This document shows positions 9,593 to 16,130 of a DNA stretch of 64,000 nt, in pieces. The stretch is from Chryseobacterium sp. ISL-80 (GTDB lineage: Bacteria > Bacillota > Bacilli > Bacillales > Cytobacillaceae). The notes below the pieces were generated by a model. It did not search any database. It worked only from the letters and a program-made list of their open reading frames with translations, and was not told where the DNA came from. The position numbers were made by a program, and so were the translations under genes. Within the stretch, counting starts at the first letter, position 1. Every line of letters starts with the position of its first letter. The stretch spans positions 310,001-374,000 of the forward strand of contig JAGGQZ010000013.1 in the NCBI GenBank assembly GCA_018613055.1. Direction: 5' to 3'.

Positions 9593-10735
9593 ATGGCGAT
9601 TAAAAAATTCGACACGAAAGCCCTCGATCTGATTTTGGAAAAAATGATCGAAACCGTTGGGGACAGCAAAGACGAGATCTTCCGGATCGCTGAACAGTGC
9701 CGGACGGATTATGAGTCTATCACCAACGAATTAAAAGAGATTAAGAGGAAGGTCGCACAAATCATTAATGATGGCGACAAGCTGGATGCCCAGGTAAGAC
9801 GAGCGAGGCTGCGACTTTCGGAAGTAAGCAAGCATTTTAAGGACTATTCCGAAGTGCAGGTTCGCGAGGCGTATGAAGTAGCCCACAAGCTCCAAATGGA
9901 CCTTACAATGAACAGGCAATTAGAAAAGCAGCTGCGTGAAAAGCGGGATGATTTGGAACGAAGGCTTGTTGGTCTGAATGAGACGATTGAACGAGCAGAG
10001 CACCTTGTATCCCAAATATCAGTTGTCATGAACTACATGATGAGTGATATTCGCCAAATGGGCCAAGCGCTTGAATCTGCCAAGGAAAAGCAGGATTTTG
10101 GTCTTAAGATTATTGAGGCCCAAGAGGATGAGCGTAAACGGCTTTCCCGTGAAATTCACGATGGGCCTGCCCAGATGATGGCTAACGTGATGATGCGTTC
10201 CGATTTGATTGAGAGGGTTTACAAAGAGCGTGGAGCAGACGAGGCCATTCGCGAGATTAAGAGCATGAAAAAGATGGTTCGATCAGCTCTATATGAGGTC
10301 AGGAGAATCATCTATGATTTGCGGCCAATGGCTCTTGACGATCTGGGATTAGTTCCTACCCTCAAAAAGTATTTGCAGACAATCGAAGAGTATCATAAGA
10401 CTACCAGAATTGAATTCACTAATATCGGTGAGGATAAAAGGCTGCCTTCTAAGTATGAAGTAGCACTATTCCGGATGATCCAGGAATCGGTCCAAAATGC
10501 GTTGAAGCATGCGCAAGCAACCTTGATTCAGGTGAAGCTGGAGATAAAGAGAGATCACGTAATGGCAGTCATAAAGGATGATGGCAAAGGCTTTGACATT
10601 AATGAAAAGAAACCAGAGTCATTTGGTCTTCTTGGAATCAGGGAAAGAGTCGAGCTTTTGGAAGGTGAGCTATCCATCCATTCAAAAATTGGCACTGGGA
10701 CACTGGTCATTATCCAGGTTCCGATGAACTTATAA
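9593..10735 (+). CDS. degS: two-component sensor histidine kinase DegS
   Basis: DegS is the cytoplasmic sensor kinase that phosphorylates DegU, controlling exoenzymes, competence, motility and biofilm genes. The 380-residue protein has no membrane segment, an N-terminal coiled-coil sensor region (about 30-145), the HisKA_3 motif [12 protein letters not shown] with the phospho-accepting histidine at 189 (the same number as in B. subtilis), and an HATPase domain with [18 protein letters not shown] and [12 protein letters not shown]. The ATG is preceded by a strong GGGGGAG. degU follows after 70 bp. Confidence 0.98.
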
Positions 10736-10805
10736 AAAGATAGAGGCAGCTGATCTGCCAATAAAGAGAAAAATAGAGACAGAAGCCATAAGGGAGGCGA
10801 ATGCT

Positions 10806-11489
10806 ATGACAACAAAGATTGTCATTATTGACGACCATCAACTTTTCAGAGAAGGGGTAAAAAGGATCCTGGATTTCGAACCAACGTTTGAAGTAGTCGC
10901 TGAAGGCGATGACGGCAGTGAAGCTGTTGCATTAGTAGAACAGTACCAGCCAGATGTCATTATTATGGATATTAATATGCCTAACAGAAATGGTGTTGAG
11001 GCAACAGCTGAATTGATAGAGGAGTATCCTGATTCTAAAGTCATTATTTTATCGATTCATGATGATGAGAATTATGTCACGCATGCTCTTAAAACTGGAG
11101 CGACTGGGTACCTTCTGAAGGAAATGGACGCTGATGCTTTAGTGGAGGCAGTCAAAGTAGTTGCCGATGGCGGATCCTATCTGCACCCAAGAGTGACTCA
11201 CAACCTGGTAAAAGAATATCGTCGACTGTCAGCTGATGAAGGTAGTACAGACAAATACATATCTCAGGTTGAAATTCGCCGCCCGTTACATTTGCTGACT
11301 CGCCGTGAATGTGAAGTCCTTCAGCTTCTTGCAGATGGTAAGAGCAATAGGGGCATTGGGGAAGCACTTTTTATCAGTGAAAAGACAGTAAAGAACCATG
11401 TAAGTAATATTCTGCAGAAAATGAATGTTAACGACCGTACCCAGGCTGTAGTCGTAGCGATTAAGAATGGCTGGGTAGAGGTAAGATAA
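10806..11489 (+). CDS. degU: response regulator DegU
   Basis: DegU is a NarL/LuxR-type response regulator; unphosphorylated it promotes competence, phosphorylated it drives exoprotease and related genes. The receiver domain (1-120) has the acidic pair Asp9/Asp10 and the phospho-acceptor Asp55 (IIMDINMPN). The C-terminal domain (about 160-227) has the LuxR helix-turn-helix [21 protein letters not shown] and [16 protein letters not shown]. At 227 residues it is near the B. subtilis length. It is separated from degS by 70 bp with a GGGAGG ribosome site and followed by a terminator. Confidence 0.98.
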
Positions 11490-11498
11490 TCTTTAAGG

Positions 11499-11537
11499 AA
11501 ACCACGTTTGTCGAATCGACAGATGTGGTTTTTTGTC
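11499..11537 (+). terminator. degSU terminator
   Basis: A long stem: AAACCAC outer arm with GTGGTTT, and inner GTCGA with TCGAC, about 16 bp with two wobbles over a one-base centre, then TTTT. Confidence 0.88.
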
Positions 11538-11587
11538 GATTGGTGCAGTTTAATGTTGGAAAAATACGACAAAAAAACCACCAGAGA

Positions 11588-11618
11588 TTTACAAAAACTT
11601 AATAATATCCGATATAAT
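11588..11618 (+). promoter_or_regulatory. candidate sigma-A promoter for sda
   Basis: TTTACA (11588-11593) and a perfect TATAAT (11613-11618) with a slightly long 19-bp spacer, 22 bp before the GTG codon that opens the sda frame. No perfect DnaA box was seen in this promoter, unlike B. subtilis sda. Confidence 0.55.
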
Positions 11619-11640
11619 TAAGGAACAGTAAAGCGAAGGG

Positions 11641-11802
11641 GTGGTCAAAATATCTTCACTATGGGAACTGACAGATGAAAAGTTAATAGAAGCTTACCAA
11701 AAGGCTACTCTATTAAACTTAGATGAAAATTTTATTGAAATGCTAATAGAAGAAATCGATAACCGAGGAATAGAGAGCTTAGAAATTGAATACGTTTCTT
11801 AA
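11641..11802 (+). CDS. sda: sporulation histidine kinase inhibitor Sda
   Basis: Sda is a small helical-hairpin protein that binds KinA/KinB and blocks sporulation when DNA replication is disturbed. The frame contains the Sda core LTDEKLIEAYQKAT...LNLDENFIEMLIEEI, closely matching the B. subtilis pattern LSDELLIESYFKAT...LNRDFIELIENEI. From GTG at 11641 it encodes 53 residues, but AAGGG lies directly against that GTG with no spacing. The sequence AAGGGGTGG is spaced correctly for an AUA codon at 11650 (50 residues), so the true start is uncertain. It has its own promoter and terminator between degU and degV. The two-helix pattern and length make the identity fairly secure. Confidence 0.85.
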   Translation: MVKISSLWELTDEKLIEAYQKATLLNLDENFIEMLIEEIDNRGIESLEIEYVS

Positions 11803-11809
11803 TGATGTG

Positions 11810-11840
11810 ACACTGCGCAAGCGATTGCCAGTGTTTTTTT
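11810..11840 (+). terminator. sda terminator
   Basis: ACACTG and CAGTGT form a stem enclosing a 13-base GC-rich loop that can partly pair further, followed by a run of seven T. Confidence 0.82.
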
Positions 11841-12074
11841 ATTGCACTAATCACCGGTTAACCTAAAAGTTTATTTATAAAGGTCTTAGATAGTTCTACT
11901 AAAAGGGGATTCGTAATCGGGAAAGGAATCAAGAATCATCGCTGCCGGATTCTCTTTTCAGTTACTAATTTCTTTATCAAAATACTTTTCCCGAAAGAAT
12001 GCAATTTAAAGGAAGTTCATATAAAATGGGATTGTACATACTGTAGAGAAAAACATAAGGATGGTAATATAATA

Positions 12075-12914
12075 ATGAAAACGGCCGTTGTTACGGATAG
12101 TACTGCTTACATCCCAAAGGAGTTACGGGAGAAATGGGATATCCACATGATTCCGTTAAGCGTGATATTCGATCATGAGACATATAGAGAAGAAATAGAC
12201 ATCAATGCTGAGGAGTTTTACGAGGAAGTCAAGCAGCGTGAGTTACCGACTACGTCCATGCCGCCTATTGGCGAGTTCATCGAGCTTTTTGAGAAATTGG
12301 CCAAAGACTACGATTCAGTCATCAGTATCCATTTATCCAGTGGGATCAGTGGAACCTATCAAGGCGCAGTGAGTGCAGGTGAGATGGTTGAAGGTATTGA
12401 AGTATATACTTTTGATTCTGAAATAAGTGCGATGGTGCAGGGGTTTTATGCTCTGGAAGCCGCTGAGCTGGCAGAACAAGGTATTGAACCTGAGAAAATC
12501 ATCGAGCGAATGAATAAGATGAAAGAGTCAATCCGTGCTTATTTTATTGTGGATGATTTAAGCCATCTTCAGCGCGGCGGCCGGTTGTCCAGTGCCCAGG
12601 CATTGATTGGAAGCCTCCTGCAGGTAAAACCGCTGCTGCATTTTGAAGATAAAAAGATCGTTCCATTCGAAAAGGTCCGTACCCGTAAAAAGGCGATGAA
12701 CCGTGTCGTCGAAATGCTTGCAGAAGACGCGAACAGCGGGGGTGAATACCGCGCGGCTGTGATCCATGCCAATCGTGAGGAAGAAGCGCTTGAATGGAAA
12801 AGCGAGCTCGAGGCCCAGTTCCCGAATGTCGAATTCCTATTAAGCTACTTCGGTCCGGTCATTGGAACCCATCTTGGTGAAGGCGCCATGGGGATGGGCT
12901 GGTATAAGAAGTAA
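12075..12914 (+). CDS. degV: DegV family fatty-acid-binding protein
   Basis: DegV/FakB proteins bind a fatty acid and, in systems studied, present it to the FakA kinase for phospholipid synthesis. The 279-residue protein has the N-terminal TDSTAYIP, the acyl-binding loops TTSMPPIGEF and HLSSGISGTYQGA, DDLSHLQRGGRLS in the middle and the C-terminal GTHLGEGAMG, all typical of the family. AAGGATGG precedes the ATG with a somewhat long spacing. The 234 bp before it (11841-12074) show nothing recognisable. Position after degSU is shared with B. subtilis yviA. No FakA gene is in the window. Confidence 0.94.
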   Translation: MKTAVVTDSTAYIPKELREKWDIHMIPLSVIFDHETYREEIDINAEEFYEEVKQRELPTTSMPPIGEFIELFEKLAKDYDSVISIHLSSGISGTYQGAVSAGEMVEGIEVYTFDSEISAMVQGFYALEAAELAEQGIEPEKIIERMNKMKESIRAYFIVDDLSHLQRGGRLSSAQALIGSLLQVKPLLHFEDKKIVPFEKVRTRKKAMNRVVEMLAEDANSGGEYRAAVIHANREEEALEWKSELEAQFPNVEFLLSYFGPVIGTHLGEGAMGMGWYKK

Positions 12915-12941
12915 ACACGGAAAAGTTATTACAACACTGTC

Positions 12942-12979
12942 AAAGCGCCATTTCCGTAATAGGAGGTGGCGCTTTTATT
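12942..12979 (+). terminator. degV terminator
   Basis: AAAGCGCCA pairs with TGGCGCTTT over a 16-base loop, followed by TTATT. It ends three bases before the first DnaA-box-like 9-mer of the comFA upstream region. Confidence 0.8.
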
Positions 12980-12981
12980 CA

Positions 12982-13173
12982 TTATCCACATAACAATGGT
13001 AGTTATCAACAAAATGCCCCACTTACCAACAGTACATTTACTCCTCAATTGCAATTACCCACAACGAAAAACGCTCACATCTATAAAAACATAGAGTTAC
13101 CAACAAATTAACCCACATTACCCACAGGAAATTGCTATTATCCACATATTAATCCACAAAAGGTTGTGATTAA
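12982..13173 (+). promoter_or_regulatory. cluster of DnaA-box-like 9-mers upstream of comFA
   Basis: The consensus DnaA box TTATCCACA occurs perfectly at 12982-12990 and 13138-13146. One-mismatch copies are at 13003 (TTATCAACA), 13055 and 13118 (TTACCCACA), 13150 (TAATCCACA) and, on the minus strand, 13165-13173. Two-mismatch copies are at 13023 and 13097 (TTACCAACA) and 13109. Ten sites fall in 192 bp, nearly all in the same orientation. More follow inside comFA: perfect boxes at 13589-13597 (minus) and 13749-13757 (plus), near matches at 13246 and 13263. No ComK-type AAAA-N5-TTTT pair was seen in this gap. Binding by DnaA is inferred from sequence only. Confidence 0.7.
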
Positions 13174-13175
13174 CT

Positions 13176-14654
13176 TTGATAAAAGAAGAGAAAATAATCC
13201 CCAACACCAAAAAGTCTGTTGATGAATGGACATTCACTCCTCCAATTACCCACAATCCTGCGTTATCCATATACCGCCCTTTCCAATACAATCCTCAGTT
13301 GCAAAAAATGCTCATAGGTAAACAGTTGTTGACTGATGAACTGCCTTGTACAACAGAGGAACTCCAGTATCACCATGAACATGGATATATAGTATATCGA
13401 AAGGGTTTTAATCGTAAAGAGCTGTCTTGTACAAGATGCGGCACAACTGATCCATCCTGGTTTGCGGAGTTCCCCTGTGCCAGGTGTGGAAAAGTAGAAT
13501 TCTATTGCCGAAAGTGCTTGATGATGGGGAGGATTAGCGAGTGTACACCTCTAATCAGCTGGGCAGGGCCAGACCCGAAACTTGAAGTTGTGGATAAACC
13601 ACTTGTTTGGGATGGTCAATTATCAGAAGGTCAAGATGTTGCTTCCAAAAGTGTGGCGGATGCTGTGGAAAACTCAAGCGAGCTCCTTGTCTGGGCAGTA
13701 GCGGGAGCGGGCAAAACAGAAGTACTATTCGCCGGCATAGCAAATGCTTTATCCACAGGCAAGCGAGTTTGTGTGGCTACGCCAAGGACCGATGTAGTCT
13801 TGGAACTGGCACCCCGACTGCAAAAAGTGTTTCCGGAAATAAAGGTTGCCGCTCTTTATGGGGGCAGTGAAGACCGCCATGAATATGCCCAGCTCACCAT
13901 TGCTACCACGCATCAGCTGCTCCGTTTTTACAAAGCGTTTGATGTCATGATTGTCGATGAAGTTGACGCCTTTCCCTATTCTATCGATGAAACCCTCCAA
14001 TATGCCGTCCAGCAATCAAGGAAGCATGAATCCTCCTTAATTTACTTAACGGCAACACCCAACACCCAGTGGCAAAAAGAATGCCGAACGGGCAAAAGAA
14101 ACTGCATCACGATTGCTGCCCGCTTCCATCGACAACCTTTGCCGTTACCCGAGTTTGTCTGGTCAGGAAATTGGGAGAAACAGCTGAAAAAAGGAAAGCT
14201 GTCCTCTCCGATAAAAAAATGGGTGGAATCCAGGCTGGCCAGTGGGAAGCAGGCATTGATCTTCGCTCCGAAAATAGCCGTTATGGACAAGATTCTCCTC
14301 ATCCTTCGCAAACTGAATCCTCGTATTGAATCCGTCCATGCTGAAGACCCCGACAGAAAAGAAAAAGTAATGAAACTCCGCAACAAAGAAATCACAATCT
14401 TGCTGACGACAACGATTTTAGAGCGAGGTGTTACCATACCCAATATCGATGTTGCCGTCATCGGCTCGGAGGACAGGGTTTTTACCGAGAGTGCCCTTGT
14501 CCAGATTGCCGGCCGGGCAGGGAGGAGTGCGGAATATCCCACAGGTGCTGTAACATTTTTTCATTATGGGAAAACAGAAGCAATGCTAAGTGCCCGCAGG
14601 CAAATTGTGATGATGAACAAGGAAGGGATCGAGAAGGGACTGATTGATGTATGA
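13176..14654 (+). CDS. comFA: competence DNA-uptake ATPase ComFA
   Basis: ComFA is a DEAD-box-like ATPase that helps pull single-stranded DNA through the ComEC channel during transformation. The 492-residue protein begins with a divergent arm, then a zinc finger of three cysteine pairs (Cys85/88, 101/104, 111/114). It has Walker A GAGKT (177-181), the DEVD box (261-264), the motif LTATP and a C-terminal helicase domain with TTTILERGVT and QIAGRAGR. The only start giving a full N-terminus is TTG at 13176, with weak ribosome site AAAAGG 12 bases upstream. The DnaA-box cluster abuts and enters this gene. comFC overlaps its stop codon; no comFB lies between them, unlike B. subtilis. Confidence 0.94.
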   Translation: MIKEEKIIPNTKKSVDEWTFTPPITHNPALSIYRPFQYNPQLQKMLIGKQLLTDELPCTTEELQYHHEHGYIVYRKGFNRKELSCTRCGTTDPSWFAEFPCARCGKVEFYCRKCLMMGRISECTPLISWAGPDPKLEVVDKPLVWDGQLSEGQDVASKSVADAVENSSELLVWAVAGAGKTEVLFAGIANALSTGKRVCVATPRTDVVLELAPRLQKVFPEIKVAALYGGSEDRHEYAQLTIATTHQLLRFYKAFDVMIVDEVDAFPYSIDETLQYAVQQSRKHESSLIYLTATPNTQWQKECRTGKRNCITIAARFHRQPLPLPEFVWSGNWEKQLKKGKLSSPIKKWVESRLASGKQALIFAPKIAVMDKILLILRKLNPRIESVHAEDPDRKEKVMKLRNKEITILLTTTILERGVTIPNIDVAVIGSEDRVFTESALVQIAGRAGRSAEYPTGAVTFFHYGKTEAMLSARRQIVMMNKEGIEKGLIDV

Positions 14655-15352
14655 ATCATTGTTTATTATGCCATGCAGAAATGGAACCAGTATTATCGTG
14701 GCAATCCCTTTTTGGTAAAAAAGAGAGTCCTAATATTTGTGGAGAGTGCAAGGGAAACCTTGCTGCGATAACTGGTGAAGTGTGCGAAATTTGCGGCAGG
14801 CCATTTGCCTTTTTGGAATCGGAATATCGTTCGGAGAATATGTGCCTGGATTGCAGGCGCTGGGAGGAGGATGGGAATTGGAGTGGAACTCTTGATCAGA
14901 ACCGGTCACTGTACCGCTATACCGATTATATAAAAAACGTAATCGCTAAATTTAAATTCCGCGGAGACTATATTCTGGTCAGTGTATTTGCTGCAGATCT
15001 CCGGCAGGCTTTGCAAGATTTTCAATATGATTATATTGTTCCCATTCCTCTCAGTGAAGAACGACTTTTCGAAAGAGGCTTCAATCAAGCTGAAGCTCTA
15101 ATCACCACTGCTGGCTTTAACCCAATCCACCTGCTCTCAAGAATCCACACTGAAAAACAGTCAAAAAAATCCCGTCCAGAAAGAATCCATCTACAACAGG
15201 TCTTCAAATTGGAAACAGAACTAAATCTTAACAGTAAAACAATTTTGCTCATTGACGATATATATACTACAGGCTCAACGCTGAGACATGCGGCTAAAAT
15301 ATTAAAAGACAACGGAGCGGCAAAGGTGTATTCATTCACTTTGGCACGCTAG
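14651..15352 (+). CDS. comFC: competence protein ComFC (phosphoribosyltransferase-like)
   Basis: ComFC is needed for transformation and interacts with ComFA. The 233-residue protein has an N-terminal zinc-binding segment of CxxC pairs (CLLC, CGEC, CEIC, CLDC) and a C-terminal phosphoribosyltransferase fold with the PRPP-binding loop LLIDDIYTTGST near residue 200, plus PIPLSEERLFERGFNQAE typical of the ComF/GntX family. Its ATG overlaps the comFA stop (ATGA), so translation is coupled. Confidence 0.94.
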   Translation: MNHCLLCHAEMEPVLSWQSLFGKKESPNICGECKGNLAAITGEVCEICGRPFAFLESEYRSENMCLDCRRWEEDGNWSGTLDQNRSLYRYTDYIKNVIAKFKFRGDYILVSVFAADLRQALQDFQYDYIVPIPLSEERLFERGFNQAEALITTAGFNPIHLLSRIHTEKQSKKSRPERIHLQQVFKLETELNLNSKTILLIDDIYTTGSTLRHAAKILKDNGAAKVYSFTLAR

Positions 15353-15860: not shown

Positions 15861-16130
15861 ATGAAGATAAATAATAATTTTGGCCCATCCGGGATCAATC
15901 CATATAAACGCCAAATGAACAAACTGGATGCAGCCGCAGCTGCCCAAAACAAAAAGGCTGATAAAGTCGAGATTTCTTCAACTGCCAAGGAAATGCAGCA
16001 GCTTTCCCAGGTATCAGTGGAACGCAAGCAAAAGGTTGAGGAATTAAAAATCCAGGTGGAGAACGGCACATATAAACTGGATTCAAAAGAGACTGCCAAA
16101 AGCATCATCAATTTCTATCGTAATAAATAA
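15861..16130 (+). CDS. flgM: anti-sigma-D factor FlgM
   Basis: FlgM holds sigma-D inactive until the flagellar hook-basal body is built. The 89-residue protein has the family start MKINNNFG...INPYKRQ, a helical middle, and the C-terminal sigma-binding stretch VEELKIQVENGTYKLD followed by AKSIINFY. It has an AGAGAGG ribosome site and a sigma-D promoter, and flgN follows. Confidence 0.94.
   Translation: MKINNNFGPSGINPYKRQMNKLDAAAAAQNKKADKVEISSTAKEMQQLSQVSVERKQKVEELKIQVENGTYKLDSKETAKSIINFYRNK

Follow-up and report, generated by a model that had tools for sequence, protein, structure and literature searches.

Candidate DnaA boxes in a conserved, helically phased array at the DNA-uptake gene comFA of Mesobacillus

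What would a dense array of boxes for DnaA, the replication initiator, be doing directly in front of comFA, a DNA-uptake gene? The question arises in a 64-kb stretch of DNA (hereafter the window; G000:C5:310001-374000) from a genome of 4.75 Mb. Along the window the order is degS, degU, an Sda-family gene, degV, the box array, comFA, comFC, a yvyF-like gene, flgM, flgN and flgK, with comFA, comFC and yvyF named on the basis of domains and gene order. The closest comFA relatives of the window belong to named Mesobacillus species and to some strains still named Bacillus sp. or Cytobacillus, and we therefore call the genus Mesobacillus. Our sample of this genus comprised 21 genomes, and the region upstream of comFA was readable in 20 of them (loci L031-L049 and L093, the last from G004); the other genome, G010, is 66% complete, lacks a full comFA match and was excluded from the tally of genomes without the array because its comFA is incomplete. 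The features of the locus are listed here, with counts referring to the 20 Mesobacillus rows.

11641..11802, plus strand: Sda-family gene, 53 aa, between degU and degV (PF08970, 48 bits)
12075..12914, plus strand: DegV-family gene, 5' of the array
12942..12975, plus strand: intrinsic-terminator-like hairpin after degV (14-pair stem, 7 GC pairs)
12982..12990, plus strand: candidate DnaA box 1, TTATCCACA, perfect and shared by 15 of 20 rows
13003..13011, plus strand: candidate DnaA box 2, TTATCAACA; same 9-mer in 18 of 20 rows
13023..13031, plus strand: candidate DnaA box 3, variable, with TTACCAACA in this genome; 8 of 20 rows have TTATTAACA, one row has lost the box by deletion and another has lost part of it
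13055..13063, plus strand: candidate DnaA box 4, TTACCCACA here, one mismatch; TTATCCACA in 14 of 20 rows
13069..13080, no strand assigned: conserved non-box element between boxes 4 and 5, consensus AAnCGCTTnCAT, recognized by column conservation; read on the minus strand it looks like a CcpA cre half-site in many relatives
13097..13105, plus strand: candidate DnaA box 5, TTACCAACA, in 13 of 20 rows; TTATCAACA in 6
13109..13117, plus strand: candidate DnaA box 6, TAACCCACA, in 16 of 20 rows
13118..13126, plus strand: candidate DnaA box 7, TTACCCACA, in 3 of 20 rows including this one; variable (TTATCCACA in 6, TTATACACA in 3, TTATCAACA in 3)
13138..13146, plus strand: candidate DnaA box 8, TTATCCACA, perfect, in 19 of 20 rows
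13150..13158, plus strand: candidate DnaA box 9, TAATCCACA, abutting the putative ribosome-binding site
13159..13163, plus strand: putative ribosome-binding site AAAGG, followed by a conserved TGTGATT
13165..13173, minus strand: TTAATCACA, two mismatches, the sole minus-strand 9-mer of the ten; overlaps the conserved end of the leader
13176..14654, plus strand: comFA, 492 aa, TTG start (start codon inferred)
14651..15352, plus strand: comFC, the next gene, same direction
15861..16130, plus strand: flgM, downstream in the same direction, beyond the yvyF-like gene

Within 192 bp (12982-13173), ten 9-mers lie within two mismatches of TTATCCACA, nine on the plus strand and one on the minus strand; of the nine plus-strand boxes, six differ from it at no more than one position, and two of these (12982 and 13138) are perfect. 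An earlier note on this DNA had described ten such 9-mers, two of them perfect and nearly all in one orientation, and every coordinate was confirmed. It had also proposed weighing this density against random DNA of equal composition, and the density is clearly higher: in 3000 dinucleotide shuffles of these 192 bp the observed counts were never attained, either at up to two mismatches (10 observed; mean 1.34, maximum 6) or at up to one (6 observed; mean 0.15, maximum 3). The densest other 192-bp stretch of the window (starts outside 12700-13400) holds four boxes at up to two mismatches, and all four perfect boxes of the window fall within 12982-13757. The dinucleotide shuffles, together with cross-species conservation, rule out chance or base composition as the source of the array.

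To describe this conservation, we compared the interval between degV and comFA across genomes. All 20 readable Mesobacillus genomes have four to eight boxes at up to one mismatch in this interval, and every one of these boxes is on the plus strand except one in L093. The comparison with related genomes that had been proposed as a test therefore comes out both ways, with the boxes present in the 20 congeners but not in the other genera examined: 45 comFA loci from these genera have 0 or 1 box at up to one mismatch (one box in 6 loci). In this set at least one genome is counted twice (L052/L069), 320 bp upstream were scanned where no degV stop was found, and the scanned stretch takes in some coding DNA in the many loci whose match begins 20-40 residues inside ComFA. 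Within Mesobacillus most boxes keep their own identity, while boxes 3 and 7 vary and box 5 is either TTACCAACA or TTATCAACA in 19 of the 20 rows. Mean column conservation is 0.946 in the boxes (81 columns) versus 0.670 in the spacers (102 columns; Mann-Whitney p = 6e-21, uncorrected for relatedness), and by this measure the boxes are under purifying selection. A GC-rich, repeat-like insertion replaces the degV terminator region directly 5' of box 1 in L033, L038 and L093, and the array is intact in all three.

A profile of boxes 5-9 plus the ribosome-binding site, trained on 17 sequences (L043 and L048 were left out), scores 70.3-84.6 bits at comFA in 20 of the 21 Mesobacillus genomes, G010 being the exception, and the three Mesobacillus sequences outside the training set score 80.2 (G004), 71.2 (G008) and 79.7 bits (G012). 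Across 172 other genomes of the family, the best score was 34.6 bits and no comparable match was found under strict filters, with weak matches not all placed relative to comFA. Seven of the 30 profile-matched loci were read by their ORFs. Six of these are weaker matches outside the genus, of which three (L182, L183 and L188) are gcp clusters; the profile therefore recognizes DnaA clusters more generally. Taken together, these comparisons suggest that the array was gained or fixed in the genus Mesobacillus and has been kept by selection.

The boxes are not all alike. Boxes 2, 3 and 5, which end in -AACA, and boxes 6 and 9, which have A at position 2, depart from TTATNCACA and may be weak DnaA sites; judged by their sequence, boxes 1, 4 and 8 would be the strong ones in the genus, alternating with weaker ones. 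That boxes 2, 3 and 5 keep -AACA, not -CACA, in nearly all rows speaks for another DNA-binding protein, peculiar to the genus, that uses these 9-mer-like sites. However, the strong boxes are perfect DnaA boxes, the array profile finds gcp DnaA clusters in other genera and TTATCAACA is also present in the yydA array of the same genome, and we consider such a protein very improbable.

The spacing of the boxes is regular as well. The steps between the nine boxes are 21, 20, 32, 42, 12, 9, 20 and 12 bp, and the nine box starts have a mean resultant length (R) of 0.92 at 10.5 bp per turn, which is also the best period in the range 8-14. Only 3 of 20,000 random non-overlapping placements reached the observed value (Monte Carlo p = 1.5e-4). 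All nine leader boxes are co-oriented and on one helical face, compared with R values of 0.23-0.88 in the other sets of at least four boxes in this genome: yydA 0.71, gcp 0.69, sda 0.88 (five boxes), ywlC 0.60 and 0.32, and rpmH-dnaA 0.23 and 0.54. Per-genome R ranges from 0.70 to 0.96 across Mesobacillus. The spacer between boxes 4 and 5 is 11 bp shorter in L043 and 9 to 10 bp longer in L046, L047 and L049, each about one turn; in L043, however, boxes 2 and 4 differ in their distance by 23 bp, not a whole number of turns.

Boxes and near-boxes continue into comFA, as follows.

13195, plus strand: near-box, two mismatches
13217, minus strand: near-box, two mismatches
13246..13254, plus strand: intragenic near-box TTACCCACA, one mismatch
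13263..13271, plus strand: intragenic near-box TTATCCATA, one mismatch; a box at up to one mismatch lies 70-90 nt into the match in 12 of 19 Mesobacillus loci
13485..13493, minus strand: intragenic near-box TTTTCCACA, one mismatch
13589..13597, minus strand: perfect box within comFA; only 3 of 19 loci, this one among them, have a box at the equivalent position
13664..13672, minus strand: intragenic near-box TTTTCCACA, one mismatch
13749..13757, plus strand: perfect box within comFA; 16 of 19 loci have a box at up to one mismatch in the equivalent position

The perfect boxes at 13589 and 13749 and the near matches at 13246 and 13263 had been picked out in the earlier note, and all four are as it described. 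At up to one mismatch, the first 600 nt of the comFA match contain a mean of 3.2 boxes (range 1-6) in 19 Mesobacillus loci and 0.11 in other genera (44 loci; L103 left out), and the next 760 nt of the Mesobacillus comFA ORFs contain a mean of 0.16. The intragenic count exceeds that of synonymous-codon shuffles (200 per gene) at p ≤ 0.05 in 16 of the 19 Mesobacillus loci, the excess failing this threshold in L044, L048 and L049. Among 139 three-codon windows ranked by synonymous conservation, those beginning at 13752 and 13749 come first and third, and the remaining intragenic boxes vary more (codon identity 0.67-0.89 where it could be assessed). The first 208 codon positions of comFA are on average no more conserved than the rest (0.64 versus 0.67), and selection, if any, would therefore act on single boxes.

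The occurrence of boxes on both strands within the ORF argues for a double-stranded DNA target. This bears on the idea that the leader acts as RNA, for example as a Rho loading site or the target of an RNA-binding protein. The leader is C-rich and G-poor (A78 C49 G17 T48) with no stable fold (z = 0.34), as such an element could be, but selection on 9-mers with a 10.5-bp phase and intragenic boxes on both strands are not expected of RNA; we rejected this candidate as scarcely credible.

How does comFA compare with the DnaA-box clusters elsewhere in the genome? There is one DnaA match in this genome, sited at the usual oriC, and TTATNCACA occurs 209 times genome-wide. Same-strand close pairs (TTAYMMACA, gap 1-31) number ten, versus one with the reversed pattern, and are found at comFA (5), yydA/rlmH (3), gcp (1) and jag-trmE (1); opposite-strand TTATNCACA pairs (gap 0-30) are found at jag-trmE, oriC and sda (the names yydA/rlmH, gcp/tsaD, ywlC, trmE and jag were assigned by reading translations, with no Pfam scan). 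By these pair counts and positions, comFA therefore groups with oriC and with loci whose counterparts in B. subtilis are reported as DnaA-bound in PMC4447404. With limits set by hand, boxes at up to one mismatch number 6 in 177 bp at comFA, 6 in 124 at yydA, 8 in 171 at gcp, 9 in 238 at ywlC, 4 in 99 at sda, 4 in 95 at jag-trmE and 10 in 318 at rpmH-dnaA. The genome-wide scan that had been proposed thus ranks comFA with oriC and the yydA, gcp, ywlC, sda and trmE counterparts, at a box density comparable with the known clusters of the same genome and well above chance outside oriC. Pairs of the form TTAYCMACA-N8-38-TTAYCMACA occur 2-9 times per genome in the 21 Mesobacillus genomes (reversed control 0). 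The pair at comFA is absent in G010, where comFA is missing, and in G014, though the locus of the latter (L046) has seven boxes at up to one mismatch. Together with conservation, phasing and the profile that finds gcp clusters, this ranking gives good support to the original reading of the locus as a DnaA-box cluster akin to control or titration clusters.

Two further loci were noted. At about G000:C16 46051-46213 (L158, 1552-1714), six boxes at up to one mismatch lie in 163 bp between histidine-kinase-like and epimerase-like genes; similar pairs are present in G001, G007, G011 and G020, and L180, from another genus, is also beside an epimerase-like gene. At G000:C6:118246-118572, among the matches listed, three copies of TTATGCACA lie exactly 159 bp apart, a spacing that probably marks a tandem repeat instead of a DnaA cluster. 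Two other com operons, comGA and comE, were considered: one TTATACACA lies upstream of comGA and no box lies nearby upstream of comE. Since neither has a cluster, we rejected the array as a general control of competence.

The comFA array could serve only to titrate DnaA, in the manner of gcp/ydiF, binding the protein and delaying initiation with no bearing on comFA expression, its position at comFA being incidental. According to the review PMC5295017, B. subtilis lacking six extra-oriC clusters initiates early, though the same review doubts that these clusters have a significant role. In six single-contig Mesobacillus genomes, about 0.43-0.56 Mb separate the array from the jag-trmE pair next to oriC, and this oriC-proximal position also favors titration. 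Against titration alone, the array begins right after a terminator, ends at a ribosome-binding site and accompanies the same gene in 20 genomes, whereas the gcp site sits between 3' ends. The yydA/rlmH and gcp arrays of this genome do resemble that of comFA in being same-strand (6 of 6 and 7 of 8 boxes at up to one mismatch) and in the recurrence of 9, 12 and 22 bp steps, but they are more weakly phased and are not at a competence gene. We judge titration as the sole function to be unlikely, although it is the main alternative to repression.

The layout of the leader bears most directly on repression. Box 1 starts 6 bp past the terminator-like stem and the last box ends at the ribosome-binding site, so a dedicated comFA promoter must lie among the boxes. 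A search for sigma-A promoters across 12880-13400 gave three promoter-like sites compared with 1.9 (sd 1.5) in shuffles, and none stood above the shuffles. The conserved element at 13069-13080 might serve as a CcpA site or belong to the promoter. Its region matches the cre consensus at up to one mismatch in 13 of the 20 Mesobacillus genomes, on the minus strand in 12 of them, and such matches are present in 4 of 44 other upstream regions; the window's own region has no match at this threshold. The binding motif of ComK is a pair of AAAAN5TTTT boxes at an allowed spacing. With this motif, 18 of 19 Mesobacillus regions were within the shuffles (L032 was at p = 0.04), and 3 of 45 loci from other genera were above all 50 shuffles. 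ComK-family genes were found in all 21 Mesobacillus genomes; two (G000:C31:183570 and C5:240919) are present here and in 19 further Mesobacillus genomes, as in many relatives, and the incomplete G010 has one.

Activation of comFA by DnaA, with the uptake genes answering to active DnaA or replication stress, has a precedent in B. subtilis sda, which is activated by DnaA (PMC4447404). Raised DnaA also promotes competence in pneumococcus, an effect that its authors credit to initiation rate, not to regulatory properties of DnaA (PMC8394987). At comFA the boxes reach the ribosome-binding site and the ORF, where a bound filament should hinder expression, and the promoter search gave none at a suitable spacing for activation. 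We regard activation as improbable and place it third in order of preference, after repression and titration.

The neighboring Sda-family gene raises a related point. Sda inhibits KinA. The earlier idea of a DnaA reservoir beside sda holds only in a loose sense: the neighbor, 1.2 kb 5' of the array, is a paralogue (11641-11802), the stretch 10438-12138 has no box at up to one mismatch, and the canonical sda is on another contig (G000:C30:218113). A third Sda-family copy lies at C13:357337. Of 21 Mesobacillus genomes, 19 have an Sda-family match near comFA, as do at least five other genera (G021, with an internal stop, G024, G029, G031 and G033). By analogy, the paralogue beside degS-degU might inhibit DegS.

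We think it rather probable that the comFA array is a genuine extra-oriC DnaA-box cluster, selected and specific to Mesobacillus, at which DnaA most likely represses comFA-comFC and is itself titrated. DnaA molecules would bind side by side on one helix face, in the stretch from the degV terminator to the ribosome-binding site of comFA. Since the boxes fill nearly the whole leader, the resulting filament should cover any local comFA promoter, making repression the most likely effect. When free DnaA is high, comFA-comFC would be repressed, and likewise read-through towards flgM; repression would be lifted once DnaA is titrated elsewhere or replication passes into another state, and the cluster would also titrate DnaA. 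DnaA in B. subtilis appears to repress ywlC, vpr, yyzF-yydD, trmE-noc and ywcI-sacT (PMC4447404), and high ComK there lets transcription run from comFA into flgM (PMC4793158). As the gene order here is like that of B. subtilis, with its read-through from comFA to flgM, the effect could extend to motility. A bolder and more tentative possibility is that DnaA gates the DNA-uptake motor through a filament, phased along the helix, that spans the comFA leader and the 5' part of its coding region; comF expression, and by way of read-through the competence/motility switch at flgM, would then read the state of initiation directly. DnaA binding, affinities, repression and timing at comFA are predictions from the DNA, and the earlier proposals that DnaA is a repressor or activator of comFA and that replication is linked to competence are plausible from position.

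Extra-oriC clusters of B. subtilis (ywlC, yydA, gcp/ydiF, yqeG-sda, ywcI-vpr and trmE-jag; PMC4447404, PMC5295017) likewise have several to about ten boxes in 0.1-0.3 kb, and the yydA, gcp, ywlC, sda and trmE counterparts in this genome have similar box numbers (ywcI-vpr was outside the comparison). The comFA array differs in its locus, which is new, in boxes that run into the ORF and in having been observed in a single genus. Like oriC (rpmH-dnaA and dnaA-dnaN), it appears to mix strong and weak DnaA boxes; unlike the comFA leader, rpmH-dnaA has boxes on both strands (5 + 5 at up to one mismatch) and is unphased. PMC4447404 gives eight high-affinity DnaA regions in B. subtilis, none at a DNA-uptake operon, and "comF" occurs 0 times in the main text of this in vitro genome-wide study, whose supplement lists 269 regions; this fits the earlier statement that no cluster is known at comF in that species. 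Our literature search found no publication placing DnaA boxes at comF, and as far as that search shows the array would be a known kind of element at a new locus. In Streptococcus pneumoniae, replication state is likewise linked to DNA uptake, though through arrested forks and initiation rate and not through DnaA boxes at a com operon (PMC8394987).

The array suggests a coupling of chromosome replication to DNA uptake that is particular to this genus; if DnaA acted directly at a DNA-uptake operon, the coupling would be of a different and more immediate kind than the pneumococcal one. If DnaA does gate the uptake motor, this would be a lineage-specific circuit between DnaA and competence that evolved by building boxes inside coding sequence as well as before it. 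A selected array restricted to one clade indicates that new DnaA clusters can arise. The 10.5-bp phasing, turn-sized indels and largely fixed series of putative strong and weak boxes may offer a template for DnaA filament assembly on double-stranded DNA outside oriC. Finally, the 20 genomes with the array and the rest of the family, in which no comparable match was found, form a natural experiment on whether such clusters act through regulation of neighboring genes or through titration.
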